A stretch of 62,194 nt of DNA from assembly GCA_002686995.1 (NCBI GenBank), contig NYZC01000356.1, positions 1 to 62,194 of the forward strand, read 5' to 3'. The notes under the pieces were generated by a model. The model searched no databases, was not told the origin of the DNA, and saw nothing but the letters and a program-made list of their open reading frames with translations. Positions 4,349 to 53,586 of this stretch are shown here, piece by piece (position 1 is the first letter of the stretch; every line of letters begins with the position of its first letter). This DNA is from Phycisphaeraceae bacterium (GTDB lineage Bacteria; Planctomycetota; Phycisphaerae; Phycisphaerales; Phycisphaeraceae). The translations under genes were made by a program, and so were the position numbers.

Positions 4349-4368
4349 ATTCTACGATGGCCCGCATG
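4349..4368 (+). promoter_or_regulatory. putative leaderless promoter (-10 TACGAT, 7 nt before ATG)
   Basis: ATTCTACGAT at 4349-4358 ends 7 bases before the ATG at 4366 and no Shine-Dalgarno sequence is present. It matches the arrangement before the gene at 30313 position for position: both read CATTCTAnnnTGnCCCnnATG. On the opposite strand the same bases read TAGAAT and could serve the gene at 4263. Confidence 0.45.
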
Positions 4369-5334
4369 GACTTACGCATTCTCGTGACCTCGGATTGCAC
4401 CGTCTGTCCCCAGGCCCTCGACCCGCTGCGGCGGATCGCCGCGGTGGACTGTCGTTTCGGCCTCGAGCGCGATGTCATGCGGCGCATCGTTCAGGACTAC
4501 GACGCGATCATGTGCGACGGCAAGGTGGTGATTGATCGCGAACTTCTTGCCCCGGCGGATCGGATTCGCGTCGTGGCGACGCCGAGCACGGGCACCGACC
4601 ACATCGACAAGCCGTTTCTCGCCGAACGCGGCATCGAGTTCATCGCGCTCACCACCGAGTACGAGGTGATCGAGCAGTTCACCGCCACCGCCGAGGGCGG
4701 GTGGGCGCTGCTGCTGGCGGCGATACGCCGAATCCCGAGCGATTTCGAGCGCGCCAAGCGCGGCGAGCGCGGCCTTGCGGATCCGGACGAGCGACGGATC
4801 CAGCTTTCGGGCAAGACGCTCGGCGTGATGGGCTACGGGCGGCTGGGACGGATGGTGGGCGAGTACGGCAAGGCGTTCCGCATGCGCGTGCTCGCTTTCG
4901 ACCGCAAGCACATCGACGTGGCCGGCGTGACGCGGGTCGACCTCGGCACGCTCGTGACCGAATCCGACGTCATCAGCCTGAACCTGCACCTGACCGACGA
5001 GACGCGACTCATCCTCGATCGCCGGCGTTTCGAGCAGATGAAGCGCGGCGTGATCCTGGTCAACACCGCCCGCGGCGACCTGCTGGACGAGGACGCGCTG
5101 GTCGACGCCCTGGAATCCGGACACGTCGCCGCGGCGGGCCTGGACGTGGTCCACGGCGAATGGGATCCGAACCTCGCCGAGCATCGCCTCCACGAGTACG
5201 CGCGGACGCACGACAACCTGATCCTCACGCCGCATACCGCCAGTTCCTGCGCCGAAGCCACCCTGATCGCGCGATCGTTCATCGCCAGCAAGCTGGCGGA
5301 CAGGTTGCGGGCGTTGATGAACCGCACCGGTTAG
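4366..5334 (+). CDS. D-isomer-specific 2-hydroxyacid dehydrogenase
   Basis: NAD-dependent 2-hydroxyacid (phosphoglycerate-like) dehydrogenase of 322 residues. The N-terminal flavodoxin-like half ends near residue 110. The nucleotide-binding motif GYGRLG is at residues 156-161, preceded by LSGKTLGVM. The catalytic Arg is in NTARGD (R236), the acid in DVVHGE (E265) and the His in LTPHTAS (H290), so the full catalytic triad is present. The second substrate-loop motif is ATPSTGTDHID. I chose ATG 4366 over 4357 because a -10-like TACGAT ends exactly 7 bases before it, as in another gene of this window. The reaction is reversible reduction of a 2-oxo acid, plausibly from sugar-acid breakdown; the substrate is unknown. 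Confidence 0.88.
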   Translation: MDLRILVTSDCTVCPQALDPLRRIAAVDCRFGLERDVMRRIVQDYDAIMCDGKVVIDRELLAPADRIRVVATPSTGTDHIDKPFLAERGIEFIALTTEYEVIEQFTATAEGGWALLLAAIRRIPSDFERAKRGERGLADPDERRIQLSGKTLGVMGYGRLGRMVGEYGKAFRMRVLAFDRKHIDVAGVTRVDLGTLVTESDVISLNLHLTDETRLILDRRRFEQMKRGVILVNTARGDLLDEDALVDALESGHVAAAGLDVVHGEWDPNLAEHRLHEYARTHDNLILTPHTASSCAEATLIARSFIASKLADRLRALMNRTG

Positions 5335-8110: not shown

Positions 8111-8116
8111 TAGTAT
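8111..8116 (+). promoter_or_regulatory. putative -10 element close to the start codon
   Basis: TAGTAT lies 9 bases before ATG 8126 with no Shine-Dalgarno sequence between, so the transcript may be leaderless or nearly so. A short inverted repeat CGCGG/CCGCG just precedes it. No good -35 is visible. Confidence 0.3.
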
Positions 8117-8125
8117 CATCCAGGC

Positions 8126-8977
8126 ATGAAGAAGATTGCGGCACATGTCGTCGCCATCGGACTGGCGGCCTGTTCGATCGTCGCGGCCGAGAAGGCGACC
8201 ACCGAAGATTCGTTCGCGCGGCTGAAGGATCCGGAGCCGAGCGTCCGCGCGGCGGCCGTCGCGGAGGTGGGCAGGGGGACGGATCCGCGCGCGAAGGCGG
8301 CGCTGAAGCGCGCGCTGGCCGATCCCGAGCACGTCGTGCGGCTGGCCGCGGCGAAGGTGCTTGCCGCGACGAAGGATGCGGCGGCCCTGGATGAGCTGGT
8401 CGCCGGGCTGGACAGCGATGATGTGCTGACCCGCGACGGCAGTGTTCTCGCGCTGTCGCACCGACCCGATGCCAAGGCGTTCGACGCGTTGATGGCGCAG
8501 TGCGCGAAACGCAGCCTGGCGTTCCGCTGGCGTGTTGGCGAAGCGATTGCGATGGCGGCGAACCATGCGTTCATTCCCATGATGCTTGACAAGGTCAGCC
8601 AGGGCGCCGACTGGCGGATTCAGGAGGTGTCCGTCGTGGCGCTGGCGCTGATGCACGACGCCGTCGGTATTGATCCTTTGCTGCATTCGATACGAAGCAA
8701 CGATCCTTACATTCGCCGGATCGCGTGCTGGCAGCTTGGCGTGATCGGCGATCCGCGCGCCATCGACCCGTTGATCTCCGACATGCTCGAGAAGTACGAC
8801 AACTACAATGACCGCGTCTGGGGGGCCGTGGCGATCAACCGGATCGGCGCAGGACTGGATCCGCCGGTGGCCGCGGTCGTGGGCGAGCTGGCGCACGCCC
8901 AGGAGGGCAAGATCGAGGCGCTCAAGCGGAATTGGGCCGCCGCCAGGGATCGATACATTCCTGATGAGTCGCCGTAA
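8126..8977 (+). CDS. secreted HEAT-repeat protein
   Basis: A 283-residue protein with a cleavable signal peptide (MKKIAAHVVAIGLAACSIVAAE) and then a row of HEAT/PBS-lyase-like helical repeats. Examples are DPEPSVRAAAVAEVGR, DPEHVVRLAAAKVLAATKD, DDVLTRDGSVLALSHR and NDPYIRRIACWQLGVIGD; about seven repeats fill the chain. Such proteins are scaffolds with no enzymatic activity and are very frequent in Planctomycetota. It ends 12 bases before the convergent prepilin-like gene. The partner is unknown. Confidence 0.8.
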   Translation: MKKIAAHVVAIGLAACSIVAAEKATTEDSFARLKDPEPSVRAAAVAEVGRGTDPRAKAALKRALADPEHVVRLAAAKVLAATKDAAALDELVAGLDSDDVLTRDGSVLALSHRPDAKAFDALMAQCAKRSLAFRWRVGEAIAMAANHAFIPMMLDKVSQGADWRIQEVSVVALALMHDAVGIDPLLHSIRSNDPYIRRIACWQLGVIGDPRAIDPLISDMLEKYDNYNDRVWGAVAINRIGAGLDPPVAAVVGELAHAQEGKIEALKRNWAAARDRYIPDESP

Positions 8978-8989
8978 GGTCGGCGTGCG

Positions 8990-9886
8990 TCAGGGCAATC
9001 CCGGATCAATCGTGTATGCGGGGCGGTTCACGGTAGGATCGCGCGGCGGCTCGTCGTAGGGCCCCAGCTTCATGAATTCGGCGCGGCCGTCGAGGAAGGC
9101 GACGTTCGATTTGGGGTCATAGGCGAACCAGAGCCAGTTGTCCGGCTGGTACGGCGAGGGTTGCGCATCGGGGTGCTTGCTCGGCGGATCGTGCCAGTTG
9201 TAGGGTGAGCCGTGCAGGCCGAACCCCTGCCACACCAGGTATGGCCAGGTGTACCAGATCGTGTGGTCCGCCATGGTGACCATCTTCGACGGGACGTCGA
9301 TCTCTTCCAGGCGCTTCCAGCGCAGCGTGTACTGCGCCTGAGGCGTCTGGTAGTTGCTGTTGTAGAGGTAGCTCGAGCCCCACCACCGATACACCGTGCC
9401 GTCACCGTAGCCGTTGCCGTTGCTCCATGCGGGCACCAGGAACTCCGCAAAGGCGTAGCCCGTGTCCGAGGGGCAGCGGAACCCCTTTTCGTCCACGTAA
9501 CCCTGCAGCTTTCGCCGGCCGCGAACCTCGGTCTGGTCCGAGTCGTCGGTGCCGCCGATCATCGCCGGGCCCCACATGACTTCCCAACTGGTGCCCGCCG
9601 GCGCCGGCGACTCGTCGAACCAGCCCCGCTCGGGCCGGATCGGGTAACCGGGCAGCCGCCCCTTGTTGTCGGCCGCGTAGGCGAGCACCCCGAGGGTGCA
9701 CTGACGCACGTTGCTCGTGCAATGGACGATCCGCGCGCTCTCGCGCGCTTCCTTGATCGCGGGCATGAGCAGGGCGATCAGCAGCGCGACGATGCTGATG
9801 ACGACGAGCAGCTCGATGAGCGTGAAGGCTCGGACACGGTCCGATCGACTCCACCCGGCTGGTCTATGCACGTGCGTGTAGTCCAT
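8990..9886 (-). CDS. prepilin-type N-terminal domain protein (pseudopilin-like)
   Basis: A 298-residue protein with a type IV prepilin/pseudopilin N terminus: a basic leader, then [20 protein letters not shown] near residue 20, with Ala rather than Gly before the Phe at the cleavage site. The C terminus has VAFLDGRAEF, the DG motif of the planctomycete DUF1559-like family. The middle is rich in Tyr and Trp, as in surface-exposed proteins. I chose ATG 9886 because AAGGCGG lies 9-10 bases before it; in-frame ATGs further upstream enter the intergenic region. No pilus machinery is nearby. The same type recurs at 25289-26011 and 52855-53586. Confidence 0.85.
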   Translation of the reverse strand: MDYTHVHRPAGWSRSDRVRAFTLIELLVVISIVALLIALLMPAIKEARESARIVHCTSNVRQCTLGVLAYAADNKGRLPGYPIRPERGWFDESPAPAGTSWEVMWGPAMIGGTDDSDQTEVRGRRKLQGYVDEKGFRCPSDTGYAFAEFLVPAWSNGNGYGDGTVYRWWGSSYLYNSNYQTPQAQYTLRWKRLEEIDVPSKMVTMADHTIWYTWPYLVWQGFGLHGSPYNWHDPPSKHPDAQPSPYQPDNWLWFAYDPKSNVAFLDGRAEFMKLGPYDEPPRDPTVNRPAYTIDPGLP

Positions 9887-9981
9887 GGTTGGCGACCGCC
9901 TTCTTTCATTCCACCTTTTCATTATTCTACAGTACAGTTCAGACGACGGCGCGAGAATAATCCGAGGCCAAAGGAGAGCCC

Positions 9982-20222: not shown

Positions 20223-22235
20223 TCACTTGAAGCTCGGGATGATGATGCCGCGGAGAATGATGTTCTGACAGAACACGAACACGATCAGCGTGGGCACGGC
20301 CGCGATCACCAGCGACGCCATGACCAGGGGGACCGTGTTCTGCTGCTGGAACTCGTAGAGAAAGACCATCAGCGTCCACATCGCGGGATCCTGGCAGACC
20401 AGGAACGCATGCATGAACGCCCCGTAGGCGGCAGTGAAGGCGCCCAGCGCCATGACGGCCAGGATCGGCTTGCACAACGGCAGCGTGATGCGCCGCAGAA
20501 TCGTCAGCTCACCGGCGCCGTCGATGACGGCAGCCTCGTACAGCTCTGCCGGAAGACCGTCGAAGAACCCCTTGAGCAGGAAGATGCCGTACCCGTTGGC
20601 CAGGCTCGGAAGCACCAGGGCCCAGAACGAGTTCAACAGGCTGACCGAAAGCGACAGATCGAAACGGGCGGCCAGGCGTGGCAGCACGTAGCCGCTGAGC
20701 ACGGCGGTCACCAGCAGCGCGACCGAGGCACTTGCCAGCAGCGGCATCTTCTTGCCCATGAGCGTCTTCAGCCAGACGAATGCCGCGACGCACAGACCCA
20801 CCAGCACCATTTGGCCCAGTGGAAAGGACTTGATCAGAAGGAAGCTGGGGATCATCAGCACCTCCGCCGGGAACGCCATCGTCGCGAGCAGGAAGACCAG
20901 CAGGTGATGGGTGTGCCGCAGGCCGAAGCGCGATAGAGCATAGGCCGCCAGCGGGTTGACGGTGAGTGTCGTGCCGATCATCACGACGATGTAGATGACG
21001 GTGACCCAGAGCGCTCGGCCGTGTACGGCGATGAAGTCGATCACGGTCAGGAAGTTGTGGGTCAGGTACGTCCACCGGAGTCTCCCCGCCATGTTCCGGT
21101 ACGCGTCGTAGTGGGCCAGGGCCATCGTGGGACCGATGGTTGCGTCCTCGAACCGACTGTATGGCGTGCCGTGCGCTCGATTGAGCGCGTCGACGGTTCC
21201 GTACCGCTCGGTGAGAAATGTCCGCCACGAGGTTTGCGGGCGCACCAGGTCCAGCGCATCGATCGGCGCAGATCGCTGAACGAACCTGGCCCACGCCGCC
21301 ACGCGGGCCGGATCGCGGGGCAGGCGCTCATCGAGCGGGAGGTCCGGATCTTCGTTTATGCTTCGGAGAAATCGACGCCAGGACGGCGCCGCGGCTGCGG
21401 CGTCCACCCGCACGAAACGCAGCGGCGCATGACGACGGAAGAATGCGCGCAGGGTGCGCTCGCCCAGGCTGAACCGGGCGAGGTCGTCATATGAGACGGC
21501 GCTCAGGGTTTCGGCTGTCCACCCGGTCTGCTCGGTAAGGCGCGCTGCGCTGCCGTACCGGGCGACGAGAAAATCGTATACGGTCGCATCGATGTTGAAG
21601 ATGCCTGTTCGAACCGGTTCGCGGGACGTGATGAAACGCCGCCAGTCGCGGCCGCGGATGTCGTCGTCGGGCCAGCGGTGAAGCGGTTGCGTAGGTAATT
21701 CCAGCTCGTTCCACGTGGTCGCGTTGTCGTCGTAGGCGCGGTTCACCTCATCGATTTCACCGTACCGGCCGGCCAGCCACCGCAGATACGCAGGGCGCAG
21801 GGCCAGCGGATTCTCGCGGCCGCCGCGGACGAACAGCGGCATCTTGAATTCGTCCGGGCAGGTTTTAGCGATGAAGCGGCGCCAGTCCGCCGCGACGGTC
21901 GCGCGAACGGACGCTGACGTCGACGTGACGGCGAGAAGCTGGGACTCCTTGATGTCCGAAGGCAGGAACCACTGATCGTGCCCGAACCACGCGGCAAGAT
22001 CGCTGACGGGGGCGGCGTCCACGAGATATTTCCTGAACAGCGCCGTGTCGTTGAACCAGTACCGCGGGATGAGCCTTAGCTGATCGCCGTCCGCGCCGCT
22101 CGTCGTGGCCGTCGAAAGCATGAGCGCGAACGGATAGATCATGGTGAACGCGCCCAGCGTCAGCACCAGGTAAATCCCACCCAGCAGCAGGCGCAGCGGC
22201 ATCGAGCGTCGGCCGACCCGGCTGATCAGGGACAT
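20223..22235 (-). CDS. carbohydrate ABC transporter permease (MalG-like) with a large extracytoplasmic insert
   Basis: A 670-residue inner-membrane permease of a carbohydrate ABC importer; the usual family length is about 280. The first membrane helix is at residues 20-42 and the other five only after residue 405. The EAA loop EAAVIDGAGE..ILRRITLPLCKP, which docks the ATPase, is at about 565-585. Between them lie about 350 residues outside the membrane with repeated motifs: DWRRFI at 118 and 198, SWRRFL at 286, SWRTFL at 337, and RYG at 157, 226 and 344 followed by DEVNRAY or DALNRAHGTPY. I chose ATG 22235 because it leaves a 22-base gap to the upstream gene. Its partner is the fused gene at 22258-25245; no ATPase gene is in the window. 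Confidence 0.85.
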   Translation of the reverse strand: MSLISRVGRRSMPLRLLLGGIYLVLTLGAFTMIYPFALMLSTATTSGADGDQLRLIPRYWFNDTALFRKYLVDAAPVSDLAAWFGHDQWFLPSDIKESQLLAVTSTSASVRATVAADWRRFIAKTCPDEFKMPLFVRGGRENPLALRPAYLRWLAGRYGEIDEVNRAYDDNATTWNELELPTQPLHRWPDDDIRGRDWRRFITSREPVRTGIFNIDATVYDFLVARYGSAARLTEQTGWTAETLSAVSYDDLARFSLGERTLRAFFRRHAPLRFVRVDAAAAAPSWRRFLRSINEDPDLPLDERLPRDPARVAAWARFVQRSAPIDALDLVRPQTSWRTFLTERYGTVDALNRAHGTPYSRFEDATIGPTMALAHYDAYRNMAGRLRWTYLTHNFLTVIDFIAVHGRALWVTVIYIVVMIGTTLTVNPLAAYALSRFGLRHTHHLLVFLLATMAFPAEVLMIPSFLLIKSFPLGQMVLVGLCVAAFVWLKTLMGKKMPLLASASVALLVTAVLSGYVLPRLAARFDLSLSVSLLNSFWALVLPSLANGYGIFLLKGFFDGLPAELYEAAVIDGAGELTILRRITLPLCKPILAVMALGAFTAAYGAFMHAFLVCQDPAMWTLMVFLYEFQQQNTVPLVMASLVIAAVPTLIVFVFCQNIILRGIIIPSFK

Positions 22236-22257
22236 GGCGTGTTTCCGAATCGGCAGG

Positions 22258-25245
22258 TCATGCTCGGGAATCCCATGCTGCCGCCGCACGAAACTGCAGC
22301 CGGTTGAGGATGCGCAGCTGATGCAGGGTGAAGCCGATCAGCAGCGCCGCCATGATCCAGCCCATGGCGGTGGCGGCGCCGAAATCCAGGTACAGAAACG
22401 CGCGAAACCAGATGTCCAGGCCGATGACCATCGAACGATCCTCCGGGCCTCCGCCCGTCATCACGAAGATGTTGCCGGACTCCTTGAAGCCGGCGATGAC
22501 CGCGCCCACGAAGTTGATGATGATCAGGGCGTGCAGGTTGGGGACCGTCACGAACCAGAACTTCTTCCACACGCCGGCCCCGTCCAGGTCGGCGGCTTCG
22601 TACTGCTGATCGGGAATGCTCTTGAGCGCCGCCAGATAGATCAGGCAGCCCGGTCCCGCCCCGGCCCAGATCACGGGCAGCACCAGCCACAGCATGACCA
22701 GGCTGCGGTCGCGCAGGAAGGTCTGCCTTTCGAAAGCGAATCGGCTCCAGAACGCGTCGATCACGGCCGCGGCGCCGCCGTTGGCGCCGCGATCGATGAG
22801 GAACCAGAGCACCAGCGCCAACCCGGTCGCGCCCGCCGCGCCGCTGATCCAGCGTTCGCGACCGGTGCCCGTGGACTTGACCGCCTGGAAGATCAGCGCC
22901 GCGAAGATGGCGACCAGGCCCAGCAGCATGAGCAGCTTCACCGCAACGGCCACGGGAAGCGGCCAGGCGTTGAACGAGAGAATCAGCCGATTGAGCACGC
23001 CCTTGTCGGTCGGGTCGTAGAAGAGCTGCTTCCACAGAAAGAGCGTGACGAGGCCGGTCGTCACGGCGGGCAGGTAGTAGATCACGCGGTACACGATCTT
23101 CCCGCGCGGGATCTCGCTGAGCAGCACGGCGAGCACGATGGGGACGATGAATCCGATCCCGACGAGCATCAGGACGTATTCGAACGTCTGCACGAGGTGT
23201 AACCAGAACGGCCTCGAGGCGACCACCTCGATGAAGTTGCGCAGGCCGACGAATCGGGAGTCGCCCAGGAGCCGGTAATCCTGGAATGCCATGATCATGC
23301 CGCGGGCCAGCGGGTAGTAGTTCCATATCAGAACCGTGACCACCGCCGGCAGCAGCATCGCCCACGCGTACGCGGCGCGACGCGGCCGGCGCCCCGCGGC
23401 GCCGATCCGCTCGCCACCGCGGGCGGTCGATCTCATGGCCAACTGAACGACGCGCACGGCGGCCATCATCAGCCCGGCCGCCAGGCCGGCGAAGATCAGC
23501 CAGCCGATGCGCGAGCGCCGGCGCACCTGCTCGTCGGACATCCGCCCGAGGATCCGCGCGTTGACCCGGTCCACGACCTCGTTCATGACCTGCTGCAGGT
23601 CGAGTCGATAACGGCCGGTGCGCGGATCGGGGCGATCGTTGATGATCCTTTCGATCAGAAGGGGCAACTCGCGCGTCTGGACGGTCGTAAAGCCCTCGCA
23701 GAACGGTTCGACGCGCGCCCACCTGTCAAGGTCTTCCCACAGCCGTTGCCGCATCGGCGGGATGCGGTCGAGCAGATCGCCGTAACCGGCGGCTTTCAGG
23801 GGGCCGGGTCTCACGTAAGGCGCCAGACCATGGGCGACGAACGTTTCGACGCGGATCCTCTGTGCTTCGGGACCCGTGACGAATTGAATGTAGGTCCAGG
23901 CCGCGCGGCGGATCCGCTCGACGCTGCGGCGACCCGGCTCGCGGCCGGGCGTGATCGCGCGGTTGATCGACAGGTACTCGCCGGCGATGAAGGCGGCCGG
24001 ATTCGCGCCCGATCTCGAGGGAAACGGTACCGCCATCCGCAGCTTCGGCTCGGAGATGTCGGCCTCGCCGAAGACGTTGATCTGCATGCCGTACCGGGCG
24101 CGATGGATCTTGCGGCCTTCGTCCTGCCGGGTGACGGCGTCCACGACACCGCGGTAGACGCGCCGGGCGACTTCGGGGTCGCCGAGGTCGAATTCGTCAC
24201 CGTTGACGGGATCCACGGCCACGCCCGTGGCGAGCATCTCCGGCGTGATGTCAAACTCGTGGTCGCCGTTGCGCAACCAGGGCTGGTGGATCATGCGCCG
24301 GTAGAACCGCATCGCCTCGATGGCTTCGGGGCTGTCGGTGCGAAGCCGCCACACCAGGTCGTCCACCGAGCGATCGGGCGGTATCGACCGGGCGTCCAGC
24401 ACGGCTTGCCGCTTCTCCCGTCGCTCGTCGTAGGCCGACTGGTTGCCGAGCCGGACGTGGAAAGCGGCGTAGTCCACGGGCAGCGCCGGGATAGGAACAT
24501 CGCGTCCGTCGGGCCCCACGTAACAGGCCTCCACGACTTCGCCGCCGGCCGACCAGACATGCTGCATGAAGTGCGAGCCGGCCCGGGTGAGGCCGGTCAG
24601 CATCTTGAACCCGTATTGCTGTGGCTCGCCGGGCTCGCCGTCGGGCTCCCTGGCCGGATCGCGCGTGAGCCTGCGCGCGAACTCGTACAGCTCGTCCCAG
24701 TTCCTGGGCACACGATCCCCCAGCCCGGCCCGCGCGAACAGATCGCGCCGGCACGCCAGGGCGTGCGAGTAGTACAGGTAGGGCACGGCGATGATGCGGC
24801 CGCGGTCGTGGCACAGCTGCCACACCTTGTCCGGCGCGTTGATGCCGGCGTAGTCCCGCCCGTGATCGGCCGCGTAGCCTGCCAGAAACTGATTGAGGGG
24901 AAGGAGAAGGTCCTGGGCGCGGTAGTCGCCGACCTTGCGTCCCTGGAGGTAGAGCACATCGGGTGCCACGCCGCCGGCCACCGCCATCAGCTCGTTGCCC
25001 TCGGCGGCGGGCCCTTCGATCTCGAGCGGCACGAGGGCCTTGACGCGGATCTCGGGATGACGCCGGCAGAAGAGATCGAAGACCTTCCGGCGCGCCATGA
25101 TGGCGGGATGGGACGTGCCCCGGGGAGGGATGTTCCAGAGGTGCAGCGTGACCGGTTCAGCGTCGGCGCCGCAGTTCGTCGCGCAGATCCAGGTTACGGC
25201 CAGGAAGACCGTCGCCAGCGACATTCGACCGGGAATGAGGGTCAA
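22258..25245 (-). CDS. solute-binding protein fused to MalF-like ABC permease
   Basis: A 995-residue fusion. An N-terminal signal segment (MSLATVFLAVTWI) is followed by a family 1 solute-binding domain, about residues 30-560: VTLHLWNIPPRG, APDVLYLQGRKVGDYRAQ, ACRRDLFARAGLGDRVPRNW, GFKMLTGL, and AWTYIQFVTGPEAQR. A membrane helix at about 580-600 and an MalF-like permease (about 620-995) follow, with IYYLPAVTTGLVTLFLWKQL and the EAA loop YEAADLDGAG at 882-891. An extra pair of hydrophobic segments sits between the third helix and the EAA loop. The binding protein is thus tethered to its channel. The family start could be ATG 25245 or 25224. With the gene below it forms a two-gene importer that needs an ATPase from elsewhere. 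Confidence 0.87.
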   Translation of the reverse strand: MTLIPGRMSLATVFLAVTWICATNCGADAEPVTLHLWNIPPRGTSHPAIMARRKVFDLFCRRHPEIRVKALVPLEIEGPAAEGNELMAVAGGVAPDVLYLQGRKVGDYRAQDLLLPLNQFLAGYAADHGRDYAGINAPDKVWQLCHDRGRIIAVPYLYYSHALACRRDLFARAGLGDRVPRNWDELYEFARRLTRDPAREPDGEPGEPQQYGFKMLTGLTRAGSHFMQHVWSAGGEVVEACYVGPDGRDVPIPALPVDYAAFHVRLGNQSAYDERREKRQAVLDARSIPPDRSVDDLVWRLRTDSPEAIEAMRFYRRMIHQPWLRNGDHEFDITPEMLATGVAVDPVNGDEFDLGDPEVARRVYRGVVDAVTRQDEGRKIHRARYGMQINVFGEADISEPKLRMAVPFPSRSGANPAAFIAGEYLSINRAITPGREPGRRSVERIRRAAWTYIQFVTGPEAQRIRVETFVAHGLAPYVRPGPLKAAGYGDLLDRIPPMRQRLWEDLDRWARVEPFCEGFTTVQTRELPLLIERIINDRPDPRTGRYRLDLQQVMNEVVDRVNARILGRMSDEQVRRRSRIGWLIFAGLAAGLMMAAVRVVQLAMRSTARGGERIGAAGRRPRRAAYAWAMLLPAVVTVLIWNYYPLARGMIMAFQDYRLLGDSRFVGLRNFIEVVASRPFWLHLVQTFEYVLMLVGIGFIVPIVLAVLLSEIPRGKIVYRVIYYLPAVTTGLVTLFLWKQLFYDPTDKGVLNRLILSFNAWPLPVAVAVKLLMLLGLVAIFAALIFQAVKSTGTGRERWISGAAGATGLALVLWFLIDRGANGGAAAVIDAFWSRFAFERQTFLRDRSLVMLWLVLPVIWAGAGPGCLIYLAALKSIPDQQYEAADLDGAGVWKKFWFVTVPNLHALIIINFVGAVIAGFKESGNIFVMTGGGPEDRSMVIGLDIWFRAFLYLDFGAATAMGWIMAALLIGFTLHQLRILNRLQFRAAAAWDSRA

Positions 25246-30237: not shown

Positions 30238-30270
30238 GAAGATCATCAGAAGATCGTCAGAAGATCATCA
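30238..30270. repeat. three tandem 11-base repeats
   Basis: GAAGATCATCA, GAAGATCGTCA, GAAGATCATCA, without spacers, between the divergent genes at 30223 and 30313. Spacing of 11 bases is about one helical turn, so it could be an operator. Confidence 0.8.
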
Positions 30271-30295: not shown

Positions 30296-30315
30296 ATTCT
30301 ATACTGCCCCCGATG
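30296..30315 (+). promoter_or_regulatory. putative leaderless promoter (-10 TATACT, 7 nt before ATG)
   Basis: TATACT at 30300-30305 ends exactly 7 bases before ATG 30313 and there is no Shine-Dalgarno sequence. The flanking bases match the element before 4366. No convincing -35 is seen. Confidence 0.45.
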
Positions 30316-32652
30316 TCCCGTGATCTGAACGTCCCTCTGGATGTCCAGGAAACCGCCGGTGTCGATCGGTCTGGCTTTCCGGTGCGAAGCGGGGTGCCGT
30401 TTGCCCCCGGAACGCTCACGGACGCCCGGCAGGTATCGCTCTCCAGCAACGGCGGACCGGTGCCGCTCCAATCGACGCCGCTGGTACGTTGGCCGGACCA
30501 GAGCATTCGGTGGCTGTTGATCGACTTTCTGGCGGATGTGCGGCGCCACGGTTACCGACGGTACGTCTTGCGCACCCGATCTGATCGAGCGCGGCCGGTC
30601 CTGCCGCAACCGGTCAGGGTGCGAAGGCGCGCCGACCGCATCGGTCTTGCTAACGATCGGTTTCAGATCGAGGTGGGATCGGGAGATTCTCTGGCACGAC
30701 TGGTGCACGCGCGCGGCGCATTCGATATCGACCTGTTCGGCGCGGTGCGCCGGTACGGTTCGCTGACGGCCACGAAACCGGATGTCGACATCGAGACGCG
30801 CGGCCCGGTGCGTGCCACCGTGTGCCTGACCGGACGTCTTGGAACCAGGCAGAAGTCCGCTCCGCACCTCGAATACCGGGTTCGGCTGCACATGTACGCC
30901 GGTAGTGACCTGGTCTGCGTCGAGCATCTGATCGTGAACGATGACCGCGCGCGACTGCAGACGCTGGTCAAGAATCTAGGCGTGCGCTTGCGGCCGATGG
31001 GCGCCGAGGCCCCGACGGGCCGCATTGGCGGCGTGTCCGGCGCCTGGTCCATCGGAGCCGGGACCCGGGCGTTTCAGAAGGGCCACGGGCTCGTTCAGAT
31101 CAGCGGGGATCTCGGTTCGCGCGTACGGCGGGGCACGCTTCCGGGCTGGGCGAGCATCAGGTCAGAAGGCGTGCGGCTCGACGTGAGCGTACGCGACCTT
31201 GCCCTGCAGTGGCCCAAGGATTTCGTCTGGGATGGCGACGCGATGAACATCGGGCTTTTCCCGGCCTGGGAATCGGTGAAGGCCCGAGACATGGAGCAAT
31301 GGACGAAGCACCTGTACCTGTTCGAACGGGATGCCTACGTCCTGAAGGTCGGTGTGGCCAAACGGCATGAGTTCTGGCTGCGCCTCGACGAACGGAAATC
31401 CATGGGCGGTGCGGCCGGTTTCCACAGAAGCGTACAGTCCCCCCTGTTTGCCGCCGCGCCGGGGAAGTATGTTTCGCGAAGTGGCGCGCTGGGTACGTTC
31501 AAGTCTGATGACGACGTCCTGGACCGCGACTGGAACCGGTTGTTCGATCAGATGGCAGGGCGGTTCCGGAAGCGCCAGCACGAGAACCAGGAGACCGGAG
31601 TCCTCAATGCCGGCGACTGGTACGGCGAACGACAGACCAACTGGGGCAACAACGAATACGACACCGCATTCGCGTTTTACATGCAGTTTCTTCGAACCGG
31701 CCGCCGCGACTTCCTGGAGACCGCGCGCCGCGCCGCCTGGCATGTCGCTGACGTGGACACGCTCCATCACGTGAACCGTGTCCTGCAAGGGTCGGCGACG
31801 CGGCAGTCGTTCATGACGCACGGATTCATGCGCGGCCAGGTTTATCCGCATACGACGGGACACGTGTCGAGTTACCGGCCGCCCCCGGCGTTGTCGGCGC
31901 GAGGACGGCATGAACCGGCGGTTCATCCCTACAACGCGGGACACCACTGGACCCAGGGTCTGGCCGCCTGCCATGTCCTGACCGGGGATCGCTGGTGTCT
32001 CGAGACGCTGCGGGCCATTGGTGATTGGCAGGTCGCGGTCAGCGAGACACCGGGCTACACGTACTACCTGGATATCGACACCCACTCGGCTCGGGTGGCG
32101 GGATGGTCGCTCCTGTCGCTGATGGCGGCGTACCGGGTGACGCGCGCGTCGAAGTACCTGCGCGCATCGCGGCGCATCGTCGACCTCGTCCTCGAATCAG
32201 CGGATCCCCACAGCGGCGCGTGGCACTATCCGCTCTACGGAGCGCACTGTGGTTGCCGGATCAAGCACGTCGGTCAACCTGCCTTCCTCACCGGCATTCT
32301 TCTCGGCGCGCTTCTGGACTACGACGAGGACCAGCGTGATCGCAGGATTTCGGACGCGATCGTTCGAGCCGTGCGCTATATGATCCGAAGCAAGTGGGAC
32401 GATCCGGCCCGCTCGTTTCGAATGACGGAGTGTCCCGCGACGGAAAGCCTCCCCGAACTGAACGGTCTCTGTCTGCGGTCGCTCTTCTACGCGTCGAGAA
32501 TCACCGGCGATGCGCGATTGGATTGCGTCGCCCGGGCGGCCCGGCAATCGTTCATCGAGCACCTGGAGAAATCCTTTTCAGGCATGGGCAAGGACCTGAC
32601 CCTCGCGGCGCGTGACATGCCGGCCGTCCTCGGATTGATGGAGTCAGACTAG
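30313..32652 (+). CDS. PcRGLX/YetA-like protein (rhamnogalacturonan lyase-like), cytoplasmic
   Basis: A 779-residue protein like PcRGLX and YetA (PL26-like). The N-terminal RIFT-barrel motif reads FPVRSGVPFAPG..RWPDQSIRWLLIDFLADV, which is collinear with the same region of the large protein at 40135-44475. A beta-sandwich follows (about 80-260), then an alpha/alpha-toroid with GDWYGERQTNWGNNEYD, GHHWTQGLAACHVLTGD and LYGAHCGCRIKHVGQPAFL. There is no signal peptide, so it should act on imported oligosaccharides. Exo-acting rhamnogalacturonan lyase activity is the family expectation; the substrate here is not proven. Confidence 0.78.
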   Translation: MSRDLNVPLDVQETAGVDRSGFPVRSGVPFAPGTLTDARQVSLSSNGGPVPLQSTPLVRWPDQSIRWLLIDFLADVRRHGYRRYVLRTRSDRARPVLPQPVRVRRRADRIGLANDRFQIEVGSGDSLARLVHARGAFDIDLFGAVRRYGSLTATKPDVDIETRGPVRATVCLTGRLGTRQKSAPHLEYRVRLHMYAGSDLVCVEHLIVNDDRARLQTLVKNLGVRLRPMGAEAPTGRIGGVSGAWSIGAGTRAFQKGHGLVQISGDLGSRVRRGTLPGWASIRSEGVRLDVSVRDLALQWPKDFVWDGDAMNIGLFPAWESVKARDMEQWTKHLYLFERDAYVLKVGVAKRHEFWLRLDERKSMGGAAGFHRSVQSPLFAAAPGKYVSRSGALGTFKSDDDVLDRDWNRLFDQMAGRFRKRQHENQETGVLNAGDWYGERQTNWGNNEYDTAFAFYMQFLRTGRRDFLETARRAAWHVADVDTLHHVNRVLQGSATRQSFMTHGFMRGQVYPHTTGHVSSYRPPPALSARGRHEPAVHPYNAGHHWTQGLAACHVLTGDRWCLETLRAIGDWQVAVSETPGYTYYLDIDTHSARVAGWSLLSLMAAYRVTRASKYLRASRRIVDLVLESADPHSGAWHYPLYGAHCGCRIKHVGQPAFLTGILLGALLDYDEDQRDRRISDAIVRAVRYMIRSKWDDPARSFRMTECPATESLPELNGLCLRSLFYASRITGDARLDCVARAARQSFIEHLEKSFSGMGKDLTLAARDMPAVLGLMESD

Positions 32653-37734: not shown

Positions 37735-37750
37735 TACACTCGACATCGTG
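37735..37750 (+). promoter_or_regulatory. putative leaderless promoter (-10 TACACT, 7 nt before GTG)
   Basis: TACACT (37735-37740) ends 7 bases before GTG 37748 and 10 before ATG 37751, with no Shine-Dalgarno sequence. Confidence 0.4.
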
Positions 37751-39250
37751 ATGGCACAACTACGCATCGGCATCGGGCGTTTCTATCACGAATCCAACAG
37801 CTTTTCGACCGTACCGGCCACCGCGGAATCGTTTCGCGCGCCGTCGTCCAACGGCGGCACGGTGACGGGGCCACCGATGCTGACGCAGGAGGATCGATCC
37901 GACGAGGTGACCGGTTTCGTCGACGTGCTGGGCGAAGACGCCGCCGCCGAGGCCGTACCGCTCCTGAACACGGGCACGCTGCCTTCGGGCCCCGTTACCC
38001 CGGATGGCGTGAGGTTCCTCGAAGATACGCTTCGCCGACAGTTGCACCGTGCGGGTCCGCTCGACGGCATCTGTATCGCTCTACACGGCGCCATGAGCGC
38101 CACGGACATTGACGATCTCGATGGTTACCTGCTGGATGTCATTCGCCAGGAGGTGGGTCATGACCTGCCTGTCGTCGTCGCGCTGGACTGCCATGCGGTC
38201 GTGACGCGCCGCATGATCGATCTATCGGATGCAATGACTGCGTTTCGGACGCATCCGCATACGGACCTGGTCGAGACCGGTCAGCGCGCGGCGCGCATCC
38301 TGCTCGACCTGCTCCGGCGCGGCGCGCGCCCCGTCGTCGGTCATCGGCGCCTCCCCATGCTTTTCGTCGACCCGGGGACACTGGCCGGTCCGTTGAAGCG
38401 GATCTTCGAGAAGATCGTTTCGTGGGATGATCGCGACGGCGTCATCTCGTGTTCGCTCTGTCCCTCCTTTCCATACCAGGACGTGCCCGAGCAGGGTTGG
38501 ACGGTCCTGGCCGTGACGCGCGACGACGAAGCCCTGGCCGAGCGCCTGGCGGATGAGCTGGCGGAGGAAGTCTGGTCGATCCGTCACCAGCTGCTGTCAC
38601 CGCCCCTGGTGGCTCCGGACGAGGCGGTCCGCCGAGCCGTCGCCGTCGACGGGGCGCCGGTCGTGATCACCGACTCGGCCGACAACGTCGGCGGTGGAGC
38701 ACCCGGCGACACCACCACGATGCTCGAGATGTTGCTTGCGATGCGTGACCAGGTCGACGGCCTGATCCTCGCCCATCTTCCGGATGCCGGCGCGATCGCC
38801 CGGATCGCGTCGGCAGGGGTTGGCGATGAAGTTCACGTTGCCGTCGGGGCCAGGATGGACACCGCCTTCAGCGAACCGCTGCCCGTCACCGGACGCGTCA
38901 CCTGCGTGACCGGCGGGCAGATCACCAACGACGGTCGATTCGGCAACGACGCGATGATCGATATCGGTGCGGCGGTGTGCCTCGCGGTCGACAACGTCCG
39001 GCTCGTCCTGACCGAGCGCGTGATCATGGGCCCGCAGCCGTCGCTGTTTCGCAAGGTGGGCCTCGAGCCGTTCGACGCGAAGATCGTCATGCTCAAGAGC
39101 ACGATCGGCTACCGGGTGACCTACGGCCACGTGGCGAAGGCGGTCATCCCCGCCGATTGTCCCGGAGCCATGTCCGCGAACATGACCCATTTCGACTTCA
39201 AGCGCGTGCCGCGCCCCATTTTTCCGCTCGATCCGGACGCGGCGTATTGA
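37748..39250 (+). CDS. M81 family metallopeptidase (MlrC-like)
   Basis: A 500-residue homologue of microcystinase C, a zinc-dependent peptidase family also found in sugar and D-amino-acid gene clusters. The N terminus IGIGRFYHESNSFSTVP has the metal-binding HESN; further landmarks are GICIALHGAMSATDIDDLDG, VVVALDCHAVVTRRM, FRTHPHTDLVETG and TDSADNVGGGAPGDTT. The family's metal ligands in these motifs appear present. Start GTG 37748 or the adjacent ATG 37751. The physiological substrate is probably not a microcystin; it may cleave an amide bond in a glycan-linked peptide or amino acid (inference). Confidence 0.9.
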   Translation: MMAQLRIGIGRFYHESNSFSTVPATAESFRAPSSNGGTVTGPPMLTQEDRSDEVTGFVDVLGEDAAAEAVPLLNTGTLPSGPVTPDGVRFLEDTLRRQLHRAGPLDGICIALHGAMSATDIDDLDGYLLDVIRQEVGHDLPVVVALDCHAVVTRRMIDLSDAMTAFRTHPHTDLVETGQRAARILLDLLRRGARPVVGHRRLPMLFVDPGTLAGPLKRIFEKIVSWDDRDGVISCSLCPSFPYQDVPEQGWTVLAVTRDDEALAERLADELAEEVWSIRHQLLSPPLVAPDEAVRRAVAVDGAPVVITDSADNVGGGAPGDTTTMLEMLLAMRDQVDGLILAHLPDAGAIARIASAGVGDEVHVAVGARMDTAFSEPLPVTGRVTCVTGGQITNDGRFGNDAMIDIGAAVCLAVDNVRLVLTERVIMGPQPSLFRKVGLEPFDAKIVMLKSTIGYRVTYGHVAKAVIPADCPGAMSANMTHFDFKRVPRPIFPLDPDAAY

Positions 39251-39404: not shown

Positions 39405-40138
39405 TCGCGTTGCGCCCGCGCGGCCAGGTATCGTCGTTTGATCTCGTCGCCGTCCAGCACGCGCTTCCACAGGCGCAGTTCGTCGATGATCGCATCGCAG
39501 GGATCCTTGCCGTCCCGACTGCCGATCCACAGCGTGTCGGGCGCCTTCATGCCGCCTTTCGACCGAGGATCGAAACCCGGCTCTTCCTGGACGAGCACAC
39601 CGTCGATGTATCCGTTGACGTGATAGAGCACGGGTGTCACTTCGTTGCGCAGCAGCTTGAGGCGCCTGCCATCCCCCCACGTCAGGGCCAGGTGGTGCCA
39701 TCGACCCGCCTTCCAGGAGACGTTCTGACCTCGTTTCGTCGTCGAACCGATCGCACCCATGCGAAGAATCCGGCCGTGCAGCACCTGCAGCGGATACGAA
39801 TTGGCAAACGGCGCTCCCGCGTGGATGAAAGCGCGCGAGCCGGCATCGGTCCCGGAGCCATTGGGGCGCACCCACAGCTCCAACGTGCCTTCATGTATCG
39901 GGAAGCGATCGCCGATGGCGTAGCGAATGCCGTGGCCGTGGTTCAGGGCCGTGAATCCCCGTCCGACGAAGCCGCGCACGAAGTGCCCGCCTTTAACCGT
40001 GGCGCCGCTCCCGACGAGAAGCGTTCGATCTTCGAACGGTTCGTGAAGCACGAGGTCTCCGTGGTCGGGCGCTGCTTCACCGAGCGTCGCCGAAGCCATA
40101 GCACCGAGCATGATCACGCCGACGCAATGCCGCATCAT
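39374..40138 (-). CDS. secreted LamG/ConA-like lectin domain protein
   Basis: A 254-residue exported protein: signal peptide MMRHCVGVIMLGAMASATLG, then a single concanavalin A-like (LamG) domain with IRYAIGDRFPIHEGTLELWV, WKAGRWHHLALTWGDGRRLK, YIDGVLVQEEPG and AIIDELRLWKRVLDGDEIKR, the consensus 'IDELRI..R.Ls..EI'. It is the last gene of a three-gene operon and overlaps the giant PcRGLX-like gene by 4 bases. The C-terminal codons come from a dispersed repeat, so the natural end may have been altered by its insertion. Confidence 0.85.
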   Translation of the reverse strand: MMRHCVGVIMLGAMASATLGEAAPDHGDLVLHEPFEDRTLLVGSGATVKGGHFVRGFVGRGFTALNHGHGIRYAIGDRFPIHEGTLELWVRPNGSGTDAGSRAFIHAGAPFANSYPLQVLHGRILRMGAIGSTTKRGQNVSWKAGRWHHLALTWGDGRRLKLLRNEVTPVLYHVNGYIDGVLVQEEPGFDPRSKGGMKAPDTLWIGSRDGKDPCDAIIDELRLWKRVLDGDEIKRRYLAARAQREERRIKAPPL

Positions 40139-43100
40139 GGCCGCACCTCCGTTTCGCCGGGCGGTTGCCAGTTGGGATCGTGGGTCAGTACAAGCCGGTC
40201 GAGATCGACGTAAGCGATCCGGTTGACCAGCTCGACGTAGTGCGGGCCGGGGTCAAGCGAAACCGACGACGCGGCGCGGAGCCAGTGCCACTTCTCGCGA
40301 TCGTGCCCCGGCGGATCGACGAGCGGCACGGTGTCATGGTCACGATCGATATTGAAGTCGACGCGGTATTCCGCGTCCGTGCCCAGGTCGCGCACGTTGA
40401 AGGTGGGGGGCCATCGCACGAGCGTCCAGATGAAATAATCAGCCTTGCGGTCGGCGGTGAAGCCCCACGTGCAGCGTGCCTGCGCACTGGCCATGCACCT
40501 GAGGAAGAATCCCCCGGACGCGGCTTGCTCCATCGTGACTATGCGCCCGGCTCCGCGAACATCGGGGCGCTCTGCTTCCAGCGCGATCGTGTCCCCCGTC
40601 GCGCTGACGCCGATTCGAACCGGCCGGCGCACTTCACTGCGGCTCCAGGCCGGACCGCCGCCGAAAGAGCCCAGGATGTGCGACGTGGTCGCCGCCGTCG
40701 GCGCCAGCCCCGTCGCGACGAGCGCCATGCGCACCTGCACGCGCTCGCCGGGTTGCAGCGACGTACTGACCGATGTGGGCACCGAACGCACGCCGGCTGG
40801 CAGCGCCGCCCAGTGAATCCGGCCGCGCAGGGTCGAATCGGATTGGTTGTGCACCACGGCGTCGATCGACTGTCGCGCTCCGGCCGACAGCGCCACCTGC
40901 TCCTGCGCGCATTGAAGGGCAACCTGGTTCGCGGCTTTCCGTGCGCGGATCGTGAACCGCGTCTCGTCGGCGCTCTCGGCCGGCGCGACCAGCAGGTGCT
41001 GGCGACGGTCGACGCGGACTGCCGGCGGCAATGAGGCCCATTCCACCGGAACGCGCAGCGCCGGCGTGCGCGGATTGGCGAGTTCGACGTCGACGGTCTC
41101 CGGGCGGTCACCTGCCAGTTCGACGCCTTGTGGCACGATGAACATCGCCGCGAAGCCGTCCGGAATCAGGGCCATGAGATCGGCGGCGGCCTCGCTGCCG
41201 CCGGCAAACTCGAGGACGTGCCGTCCGCTTGAAAGCGCGACTGCGGGAGATGCCCCCCGCCAGCGCCAGGACGCGTGCCGGTCCTCCGAACTCACGGATA
41301 ACCATGGCCCGCCGTCGATCCGGAATCGAATCGGCTGCGATTTCGGGTCGAGCCTGACGCGTACCGCCAACCGGTATTCGCCGTCTTCGGCGAGGGAGAA
41401 CGACAGGCGATTGGGACGATTCGAATCGGGCGATTCGCCGAACCGCACGCAGGCGGCGCCCGACGCGAGTGGATCCGCTTCGATTTCGACATCGGGTGCC
41501 AGCCACTCCGGCTCGTCCAGTTCGAAGGCGCGAATGCTCCGGACGGACCGACCGTTCAACCGCGATAGCTGCACCGCGTGCCTGCCCATGACGGGACGTT
41601 CCGCAACCGTAAGGCGATAGCCCGGCCGCGAATCCGCCCCGGCGGCGTCGGATCGAATCAGCCAGGCTCGTGGTCCGCGCGGCAGCCAGGGGGACATCAT
41701 GCTCATGGCGGCAGGCATGCGCTTCGTGGTGAACGCCATTTGCTTGGGGTTGCTCGAACCGTAAATCCGCTGGCCGAAAATCCTGTCCGCGCGAGTCAGG
41801 AAACGATCGTCGCGAGTGAGCTCGAATGCCATCGCCAGCACTTCGACGACCCACGGAAACGAAGTATGGCGCGTGACCTGCGTCGGCGTGAAGTCATCGA
41901 GGACGCGCTCCGCGTACTGAATGATCGCCTCGCGGCAGCGCGGGTCGCCGGTGACGCGGAAGTATTCAATCACCGACAGGCCGACGACCTGCATCATCCA
42001 GCCGCGGCCTTCGGTGAGATCCCGCTGTATCTCGTGGTACGGCCACTCTCCCGAGACCGGGCTGTCGAGAAAGCCTTCGATGTAGTGTCGCGCCGCTTCC
42101 AGGTATCGCTGGTCCCACGTGTCGGCGTACAGGGACACGAACGCCAGTGCGGGCCAGCCGTATCCGCGATGCATCTCCACGGCCGGCGGCAGCGTCTTGC
42201 GCAGCTTGAACCTCCCGTGGCTCATCGCGACCTCGGTGGCCCGCCGGTCAGCGAAGAGATGTCCGAAAGCCAGCAATCCGTCGATCCACGCGTGCCCGCC
42301 GGCGCCCGCTTTCTGGCCGACGTGCTCGGGGCCGTGCGCGTACTGGGCCCCGGCGCGATGAGCCGGGAAGTGCACGTGATCGATATCCATCCAGTGTCGG
42401 CCGGCGATCTCGGCTTCGTGGAACCATGGTCGCGTGCCGCGCCGCGCGAACTCGTGCACGAAGGTCAGGGTGCCGTCGTACTCGAGGTTGATCCACGCAT
42501 TGCCCTCCGGATCGTCCCAGTTGCTCCAGTTGCGGATGCCTCCGCTGGCCGTCGACGCGCGATAGGCGCCGCAGAACGAGTCGCCATAGTCGCGCATCCC
42601 GTAGTGCCGCTGCGGCAACAGGTTTCGACGACGGTTGACATAGGACGCCAACCCGTCGTCCATGCTCGATTCGTAGGGACGAAACAGATCGGGATTGAAC
42701 GCGCCGACCTCGCCCAGTGCCTTCGTGGATTGGACCCAGGCGGGAGGCGTCGGCGCGATCAGCGGGTGCTCGAAGGCCGCCGCCACCCGTGACGCCGCCA
42801 CCGAACCGCTCTGACCCGGGTGGAAGTGGAACAGCACCTCGTGACGCTTGGCCATTCCCCGGTAACAGTCGAAATGGGGCTGGCTGCGCTGCGGCCATAA
42901 CTCGAGAATCGCCGTCGTCCCGTGCGTGATCAGGCTCTTGGGTTGTTGCTGCCAGCCGTGGCGCACGGCGACAGTCATCCCGAACCGATCGTCGCCGAGA
43001 TGCATCCAGCCCCCGAAGCGCCTGCCCTTCGCGATCGGACGATCGGACTCGTACAGTCGGAACCGGTCATGCGCGGACTGGAAGATCTCGACGGGCGCGC

Positions 43101-44475
43101 CGGCGGCAGCGCCTTCGTGCACGGCGCCGTCGTCGATCCCGAACGCATGACGCACCTGCCCCGAATCGAGTTCGAGCGGCACCGACAGCGCCAGGCGGCT
43201 GATCATCCGCCACCACGCGTTCTTCTTTCGGTAACCGTTGCCGTCCTTGAGGTTGGAGCGGATCCAGCCGCGCACCTGGTCGTCGTGCGCGTTTGTGAAG
43301 GTGTAGAACACTCGCACCATCGAGTGACCGGCGTAAGCGTGATAGCGCGCGTCGTACGCGAGCCATTTGGCGCCGTCTGCCGCGACGTGCCAACCCTGCA
43401 CGCGCACGACGGCCCGCATCGGTCCGGTCTCTTCGATCGTCACGCGCTCGGGCGGACGATCGGCGGTGCCGTAGTCGGTGGCGATCTCCGGCGCATGCTC
43501 CAGCGACGGCCGCCATTCGTCGATGACACGGCAGGTCGACGCGTCGAGGTAGCTGGCGCGGGGCGGTTCCGACAACGTCGCTCCTCCCGGGGGGTGCCCG
43601 GTCACGATCGTCTCGTCGTCGGTATGTCTGCGGTTGCCGTCGACGTCCAGGCTGACATGTTCGAACAGGCTGAAGCGCGACTTGCTGAGCGCGAATTGCA
43701 GCGGGCCGGTGTCGATCTCGATGCGTTCGTCCGAATCGCGCACCGTGAGCGGCGACGCGGCGGACGACGGTTCGATCGCATGGCCGTACTCGATCCCGTA
43801 TTCGGCGCGCCGACGGGCCCGAACGTTCGCCTGGAAGTCGATCGTGACCCACTTGACGCTACCGTCGGGCCAGTAGCCGGTGGCGCGAAACTGGCCGGGA
43901 ACCGGGCGGCCCTGCGGACTGAGGACGCGCATCTGCCGGTCGGTGGCCAGTTCGCCGATCGGGACCGGGAATCCGAAGGTCACCGGATACTGCCGGCGGT
44001 CGATGCCTGCCGGTTCGTCGATGATCAGCGGGACGCTTCGCCGCTCGGCGCTTCCCTTCCGGAGGATGCGGAAATCCGCATCGGCGGTTTCGCGTTCCGT
44101 CGTCGCGCCGGGCTGATACGTGGCGCCGTAGCGTGCCGCGGCATCGAAGCCGGACACGTAAATCTTCAGGAAGCGAGGATCGAAGACGAATTGATCCGGA
44201 CCATCCACGTCATCGAGGAACGACCTGCGGGTCAGCGCTTTGCCGTCACGCTCGATGACGATCGACGCCCGGTCCGGTGGGGGATCCCTGCCTTCGATCA
44301 GTCCGGTAAAGGACAGGCGGTGCTTCTGGATGGGCAACGACTCGAGGTTGCCGTAAGGACGCAACCGGCACCAGGTTCGCGTGCTCAGATCGACGTGTTG
44401 CGCATCGCCGACCGTGATGGGCGACGCCGCGCCGACGAGCGCGAGGATCGTGAGGATGTACGGCCACTTGAACAT
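40135..44475 (-). CDS. giant secreted PcRGLX-like (rhamnogalacturonan lyase-like) multidomain protein
   Basis: An exported protein of about 1446 residues. The signal peptide MFKWPYILTILALVGAASP favours ATG 44475; GTG 44538 overlaps the upstream stop as GTGA and would add 21 residues. A beta-domain is followed, from about residue 145, by the RIFT-barrel motif YPVTFGFPVPIGEL..YWPDGSVKWVTIDFQANV, and an alpha/alpha-toroid contains GGHAWIDGLLAFGHLF, MHRGYGWPALAFVSLYADTW and GRGWMMQVVGLSVIEYFRVTG. The C-terminal third comprises at least three beta-sandwich modules (for example LSLAEDGEYRLAVRVRLDP, and HYVELVNRIAYVDLDRLVL at the end). It is the only secreted PcRGLX relative here and probably performs the first extracellular cut. 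Confidence 0.78.
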   Translation of the reverse strand: MFKWPYILTILALVGAASPITVGDAQHVDLSTRTWCRLRPYGNLESLPIQKHRLSFTGLIEGRDPPPDRASIVIERDGKALTRRSFLDDVDGPDQFVFDPRFLKIYVSGFDAAARYGATYQPGATTERETADADFRILRKGSAERRSVPLIIDEPAGIDRRQYPVTFGFPVPIGELATDRQMRVLSPQGRPVPGQFRATGYWPDGSVKWVTIDFQANVRARRRAEYGIEYGHAIEPSSAASPLTVRDSDERIEIDTGPLQFALSKSRFSLFEHVSLDVDGNRRHTDDETIVTGHPPGGATLSEPPRASYLDASTCRVIDEWRPSLEHAPEIATDYGTADRPPERVTIEETGPMRAVVRVQGWHVAADGAKWLAYDARYHAYAGHSMVRVFYTFTNAHDDQVRGWIRSNLKDGNGYRKKNAWWRMISRLALSVPLELDSGQVRHAFGIDDGAVHEGAAAGAPVEIFQSAHDRFRLYESDRPIAKGRRFGGWMHLGDDRFGMTVAVRHGWQQQPKSLITHGTTAILELWPQRSQPHFDCYRGMAKRHEVLFHFHPGQSGSVAASRVAAAFEHPLIAPTPPAWVQSTKALGEVGAFNPDLFRPYESSMDDGLASYVNRRRNLLPQRHYGMRDYGDSFCGAYRASTASGGIRNWSNWDDPEGNAWINLEYDGTLTFVHEFARRGTRPWFHEAEIAGRHWMDIDHVHFPAHRAGAQYAHGPEHVGQKAGAGGHAWIDGLLAFGHLFADRRATEVAMSHGRFKLRKTLPPAVEMHRGYGWPALAFVSLYADTWDQRYLEAARHYIEGFLDSPVSGEWPYHEIQRDLTEGRGWMMQVVGLSVIEYFRVTGDPRCREAIIQYAERVLDDFTPTQVTRHTSFPWVVEVLAMAFELTRDDRFLTRADRIFGQRIYGSSNPKQMAFTTKRMPAAMSMMSPWLPRGPRAWLIRSDAAGADSRPGYRLTVAERPVMGRHAVQLSRLNGRSVRSIRAFELDEPEWLAPDVEIEADPLASGAACVRFGESPDSNRPNRLSFSLAEDGEYRLAVRVRLDPKSQPIRFRIDGGPWLSVSSEDRHASWRWRGASPAVALSSGRHVLEFAGGSEAAADLMALIPDGFAAMFIVPQGVELAGDRPETVDVELANPRTPALRVPVEWASLPPAVRVDRRQHLLVAPAESADETRFTIRARKAANQVALQCAQEQVALSAGARQSIDAVVHNQSDSTLRGRIHWAALPAGVRSVPTSVSTSLQPGERVQVRMALVATGLAPTAATTSHILGSFGGGPAWSRSEVRRPVRIGVSATGDTIALEAERPDVRGAGRIVTMEQAASGGFFLRCMASAQARCTWGFTADRKADYFIWTLVRWPPTFNVRDLGTDAEYRVDFNIDRDHDTVPLVDPPGHDREKWHWLRAASSVSLDPGPHYVELVNRIAYVDLDRLVLTHDPNWQPPGETEVRP

Positions 44476-44534
44476 GTCGTGAAACGGGATCCGCCGCGAT
44501 GCGTCCGCCCGGTCACCGTGGCGCTCCGAGTGCG

Positions 44535-52838: not shown

Positions 52839-52854
52839 TGCGTATCCTGATTCG

Positions 52855-53586
52855 ATGCACGACGCTTCGGCCAGGCCATTTCGACCCTGCTCCGGCGATC
52901 GGGGCTTCACACTGATCGAACTGCTCGTCGTGATCTCGATCATCGCGCTGCTGATCGCGCTGCTCCTGCCCGCGATACGCGGGGCGAAGGATATCGCGAG
53001 ACAGGTCACGTGCCTCAGCAACGAGAGGCAGATGGGGCAGGTCCTGCAGGCGTACGTCGGCGAGGCGGACGGCTTCTTTCCTCTGGTTGAGGATAACAAC
53101 GGCCCAATCCCCGGCGCCAACAGTGACGTCGAAGATCCCTGGAGCGTCATCGGGCTGTCCCTGCCGCTGGTGAACGACAACATCGAGATGTATCAATGTC
53201 CGACGGCGCTGACGTTCGGCATCCCCACCGAATACCTGGGGCGCAAGGTGACCCCCTACATGCACAACGGCGTGCTGATGCACGTCTTCCCCACGCTGAT
53301 GTCATCCGTGCCCAATCTTCCCGCGACGGTCCTGGTGCACGAGTACGGACACATGACGGTCCGGTCATACCTTCGACCCTGGTACACCAACGGTGAGTAC
53401 CGGCTCGATTACGAAACCTGGGTGCGCGGCTTTTCCTATCACAGTGGTGGCTCGAACTTCCTGTTCGGGGACGGACATGCCGAGCTGGTCCACTTCGATG
53501 ACGTGCGGACGGGCATGTGGGGGCTCACGCCCGCGGACGAGACGCTGCCGGAGAGCATCGGGCAGGGGTACGACCGATCATTTTGA
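52855..53586 (+). CDS. prepilin-type N-terminal domain protein (pseudopilin-like)
   Basis: A 243-residue protein with the classical pseudopilin site [20 protein letters not shown] at residues 17-36 and the C-terminal H-x9-DG motif [19 protein letters not shown] 52855 fits the usual short basic leader; the frame is open further upstream through the hairpin. Its stop TGA overlaps the next start as TGATG, so it should be translated together with the large LamG-glycosidase protein, a link not made by the other two prepilin-like genes. Confidence 0.88.

Follow-up and report, generated by a model that had tools for sequence, protein, structure and literature searches.

TAnnnT boxes ahead of four genes

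Four plus-strand genes of the window, by which we mean the whole 62,194-nt stretch of Phycisphaeraceae DNA analyzed here, carry a -10-like box shortly ahead of their start codons. TACGAT (4353-4358) is separated by seven nucleotides (N7) from ATG 4366, which opens a D-2-hydroxyacid dehydrogenase gene (4366-5334); TATACT (30300-30305) shows the same N7 spacing to ATG 30313 of a gene encoding a PcRGLX-like protein (30313-32652), and TACACT (37735-37740) lies at N7 from GTG 37748 and at N10 from ATG 37751 of an M81/MlrC family gene (37748-39250), all three as reported in the first-pass annotation. The fourth box, upstream of a gene for a HEAT-repeat protein (8126-8977), had been read as TAGTAT-N9-ATG. 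That hexamer is present at 8111-8116 with the spacing claimed, but the overlapping TATCAT at 8114-8119, which lies at N6 from ATG 8126, is the better register, since N6 is the commonest spacing in the genome and is the one kept in a paralogue. Relative to the start codon, the box begins at -13 at three of the sites and at -12 at the other. Strings resembling GGAG, GAGG or AGGA are absent upstream of all four starts, in agreement with the claimed lack of a Shine-Dalgarno sequence. All four boxes fall within divergent intergenic regions and, given that each gene has a divergent neighbor upstream, each must open a transcription unit. Further candidates in the window are TACTGT (9929-9934, minus strand), at N6 from an in-frame ATG at 9922 that extends a minus-strand gene (8990-9886), and TATCCT (52843-52848, plus strand), at N6 from ATG 52855 of a gene that ends at 53586.

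The four sites can be held with different degrees of confidence. ATG 8126 is the sole ATG, GTG or TTG between the in-frame upstream stop and the coding body, the protein that it opens has a signal-peptide-like N-terminus, and the site is very probably genuine. At the M81 gene, GTG 37748 is followed immediately by ATG 37751, so that a 3-nt leader is possible; this site is highly likely to be genuine, only a shade less so than that at 8126. ATG 30313 is supported as a start because the distance from its Met to a conserved D-R-x-G-F-P motif is equal in a paralogue on contig C114, and we regard this site as probable. The dehydrogenase site is somewhat less secure than the other three, though still likely. 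Its start is ambiguous between positions 4357 and 4366: a second in-frame ATG, absent from the first-pass annotation, lies at 4357 within the sequence TACGATG, and it was this ATG that the codon-usage gene finder chose. Any TAnnAT box that is followed by G and spaced at N7 yields an in-frame ATG 9 nt 5' of the start, and several genes in the genome sample (L005, L210 and L214) were apparently mis-called at such a box-internal ATG. A practical rule for annotation follows: gene finders that rely on Shine-Dalgarno sequences alone will misplace TAnnnT-type starts, and the false ATG inside such a box, as at 4357, is a systematic trap.

Other features of the window were also noted. At 30238-30270, 30-60 nt 5' of TATACT in the region ahead of the PcRGLX-like gene, an 11-nt unit is repeated three times head-to-tail (GAAGATCATCA, GAAGATCGTCA, GAAGATCATCA); no further copies were found in the sampled genome, and the triple repeat could be a regulator binding site. 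A second, far larger PcRGLX-like protein (1467 aa) is encoded on the minus strand at 40135-44538. Also on the minus strand, the region 20223-25245 holds an open reading frame with a solute-binding-protein match (988 aa) and another with a glycosyl hydrolase 42-like plus ABC permease match (659 aa), both larger than is usual in an ABC sugar transporter.

Spacing of the box in the genome

The bare pattern TANNNT-N7-RTG occurs 8 times in the 62,194 nt of the window versus 9.05 expected and is therefore not enriched. Hence, the window by itself is unable to establish the claim; data on the scale of the genome do so. The genome-scale sample was drawn from the 7.8-Mb assembly to which the window belongs and covered approximately 1.23 Mb. 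In a gene-anchored test, genes were predicted by codon usage only, leaving the choice of start codon free of any motif, and the expectation was taken from the region between -70 and -21. A TAnnnT starting at -13 or -12 was present in 38 of 611 lead (first-in-unit) genes against 7.3 expected (Poisson P ~ 1e-15); among operon-internal genes, the figure was 3 of 220. By the same expectation, 7.3 of the 38 box-bearing lead genes (about 20%) would carry the box by chance, and any one site may therefore be false.

In a second test, which did not use gene prediction, instances of TAnnnT-Nk-ATG were counted for k = 0 to 30. For ATGs opening a reading frame of at least 100 codons, 46 instances were obtained at N6 and 33 at N7, compared with about 14 at other values of k; with GTG, 28 instances were counted at N6. 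No spacer peak was seen in this profile for TTG, for CTG or for ATGs without an open reading frame, and in a separate profile ATC was likewise flat. From the excess, the TAnnnT-N6/N7 class is estimated to comprise some 5-7% of genes. The middle positions of the box favor C/T, A/G and A/C. A Shine-Dalgarno sequence was found in 2 of the 38 box-bearing lead genes versus 133 of the 573 lead genes lacking a box, a difference that is partly mechanical and constitutes weak evidence because the box sits on the positions that the Shine-Dalgarno sequence would occupy. A search of the assembly found no 16S rRNA.

Boxes facing in both directions were also observed in the sample. Divergent gene pairs with a TAnnnT box at N6 or N7 on both genes occur at L004 (8896 on the minus strand and 9927 on the plus strand, 53 bp apart), at L057 (4389 minus and 4453 plus, 63 bp apart) and at L211 (14895 minus and 15079 plus). 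At L204 (3397-3450, contig C257), a very short divergent intergenic stretch of TATAGGC/TATAGGG repeats carries a leaderless-type box in each direction and is a possible bidirectional leaderless promoter.

Conservation in paralogues and related genomes

Paralogues of two of the four genes retain the box. A paralogue of the HEAT-repeat gene, located on contig C239 and 78% identical where the two match, has an identical TATCAT-N6-ATG, the rest of its upstream region (-60 to -13) being only 40% identical. The M81 paralogue on contig C75 (54% identical) presents TAGAAT-N7-ATG within one codon of the position of TACACT in the window, and its ATG aligns with ATG 37751. The box is not kept at the start in paralogues of the dehydrogenase (4366) and PcRGLX-like (30313) genes, and orthologues of the dehydrogenase in named genomes and relatives, all of them distant, show no box at the corresponding place.

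The analysis was extended to 61 genomes from the family and order of the window by comparing counts of TANNNT-N6-ATG with those of a frame-matched N12 control, which was run because the reversed-pattern and N10 controls are not frame-matched. N6 exceeded N12 in 60 of the 61 related genomes, with z > 3 in 52 of them. The counts were 430 versus 220 in the genome of the window, 321 versus 35 in G003, 412 versus 79 in G014 and 225 versus 43 in G055. The signal was strongest in G003, which belongs to the same family as the window and has a GC content of 73.3%. At 73% GC, the start calls of the codon-usage gene finder are poor in this genome, and spacer profiles free of start calls were used instead; the sampled profile shows a broad peak from N5 to N9 (11, 21, 9, 7 and 6 instances, against about 1), from which leaderless-type usage may, by a rough estimate, reach about 20% of genes. 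G017 gave odd peaks at N3 for ATG and at N5 for GTG in a small sample, probably due to repeats.

A survey of the phylum, whose numbers are less secure because its N10 control is not frame-matched, detected an excess in Phycisphaerales and in families f22, f25, f28, f35 and f45, and no excess in f26, f38, f54 and f56 or in the three further families sampled from the class to which Phycisphaerales belongs. It is somewhat more likely than not that TAnnnT leaderless transcription is a major but phylogenetically patchy mode of expression in Planctomycetota, one that would be strong in Phycisphaerales as well as in several other families and lacking in others of the phylum and class.

Probable leaderless transcription and alternative explanations

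We interpret the boxes as very probable -10 elements of leaderless transcripts, an arrangement that would be general for a minority of genes in this Phycisphaerales genome and its relatives and would not define a regulon (probability roughly 0.85). In the proposed mechanism, a sigma factor would bind a sigma-70-type -10 element (TAnnnT) located 6-7 nt ahead of the start codon, RNA polymerase would begin transcription at the start codon or a few bases from it, and the resulting leaderless mRNA would be read from its 5' end by a ribosome carrying initiator tRNA, with no need for a Shine-Dalgarno sequence. The leaderless interpretation put forward in the first-pass annotation is supported by the motif itself, by a spacing enriched genome-wide, by its dependence on a following open reading frame, by its restriction to possible starts of transcription units, and by its being conserved both in two paralogues and among genomes of the order.

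Several other explanations were weighed. The boxes might be genuine -10 elements of transcripts with short leaders of about 3-10 nt, the true start codons lying slightly 3' of those assumed. The M81 gene fits this, with ATG 37751 three bases past the GTG and aligned with the ATG of the paralogue, as does the breadth of the N5-N9 peak in G003. In the genome of the window, however, the profile has a sharp N6-N7 peak and none from N8 to N12, which suggests selection for a leader of zero or near-zero length, and we consider short leaders unlikely. It is slightly less likely still that the four matches are chance hits to a permissive pattern, selected by eye from a window rich in candidate starts. 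The chance-level count of the bare pattern in the window and the background probability of about 20% for a random box-bearing lead gene speak for such an origin, but it accounts neither for the positional enrichment across the genome nor for the retention of two of the four sites in paralogues and the location of all four in divergent intergenic regions. An A/T-rich box could also act in translation, as a signal for ribosomal protein S1 or as an AU-rich enhancer, and in the single planctomycete studied by Nakagawa et al. (2017, PMC5397173) leaderless and S1 signals could not be separated. Against a role in translation, which we consider very improbable, the signal consists of the specific T1, A2 and T6 of a -10 box and is sharply positioned, and operon-internal genes, which also need to be translated, are nearly devoid of it when set against lead genes.

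Least probable of all, and hardly tenable, is a dedicated regulon in which the dehydrogenase, PcRGLX-like and M81 genes, whose co-regulation had been raised as a possibility in the first-pass annotation, are controlled together through an extended element, CATTCTAnnnTGnCCCnnATG. The sites at 4366 and 30313 do agree at this string, as had been pointed out; this 21-mer pattern has just two occurrences in the 7.8-Mb genome, both of them in the window, and the three proteins could conceivably share a role in sugar or sugar-acid catabolism. The agreement, however, covers 9 of the 15 free columns and is matched by 9 of the 351 pairs that can be formed among 27 unrelated N7 sites; it is thus at chance level and does not constitute evidence of a shared element, which is in any case lacking at the M81 and HEAT sites. 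Moreover, the box precedes many unrelated and housekeeping genes: among 20 proteins scanned behind boxes were homologues of succinyl-CoA ligase (sucD), an AIR synthase-related protein (purM), LpxB (lpxB), squalene-hopene cyclase and UvrC (uvrC), together with homologues of class-V aminotransferase, epimerase, ROK kinase, GFO/IDH/MocA oxidoreductase and M50 protease.

The preferred reading, that of leaderless transcription, relates these sites to a known kind of signal. In high-GC bacterial genomes, a TANNNT located about 12 bp before the start has been published as the leaderless signal, and the arrangement has been described for Actinobacteria and Deinococcus-Thermus, planctomycetes not being named in the main text (Zheng et al. 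2011, PMC3160421). The analogy with these groups drawn in the first-pass annotation is apt as regards mechanism, although the genome belongs to Phycisphaerales (Planctomycetota). The sites described here share with the TANNNT leaderless genes of those phyla the TAnnnT core with an uninformative middle, the high-GC genome, the spacing of about 12 bp, the absence of a Shine-Dalgarno sequence and the location at starts of transcription units. They differ in lineage and in apparent usage, which is about 5-7% of genes here compared with about 20-40% in those phyla. T1, A2 and T6 are present as in the sigma-70 -10 (Pribnow) element, but, unlike in sigma-70 promoters, a clear -35 element or consensus was not found in 72 aligned sites. 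For the one planctomycete covered by Nakagawa et al. (2017, PMC5397173), genes lacking a Shine-Dalgarno sequence were suggested to use leaderless and/or S1-dependent initiation, and the sequence-specific, operon-position-dependent box reported here favors the former of these alternatives, which that study had left unseparated. No direct description of leaderless promoters in Phycisphaerales was found in the literature searched, the coverage of which was incomplete and makes this weak evidence of novelty.

On this reading, the boxes belong to a promoter type known from other bacteria; we found no clear earlier description of it for this group, and the boxes extend a known arrangement of promoter and translation start to that lineage. 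If the patchy distribution among planctomycete families is real, the phylum would hold natural events of gain or loss of leaderless initiation, and the on/off pattern among its families would make such gain and loss testable inside a single phylum.
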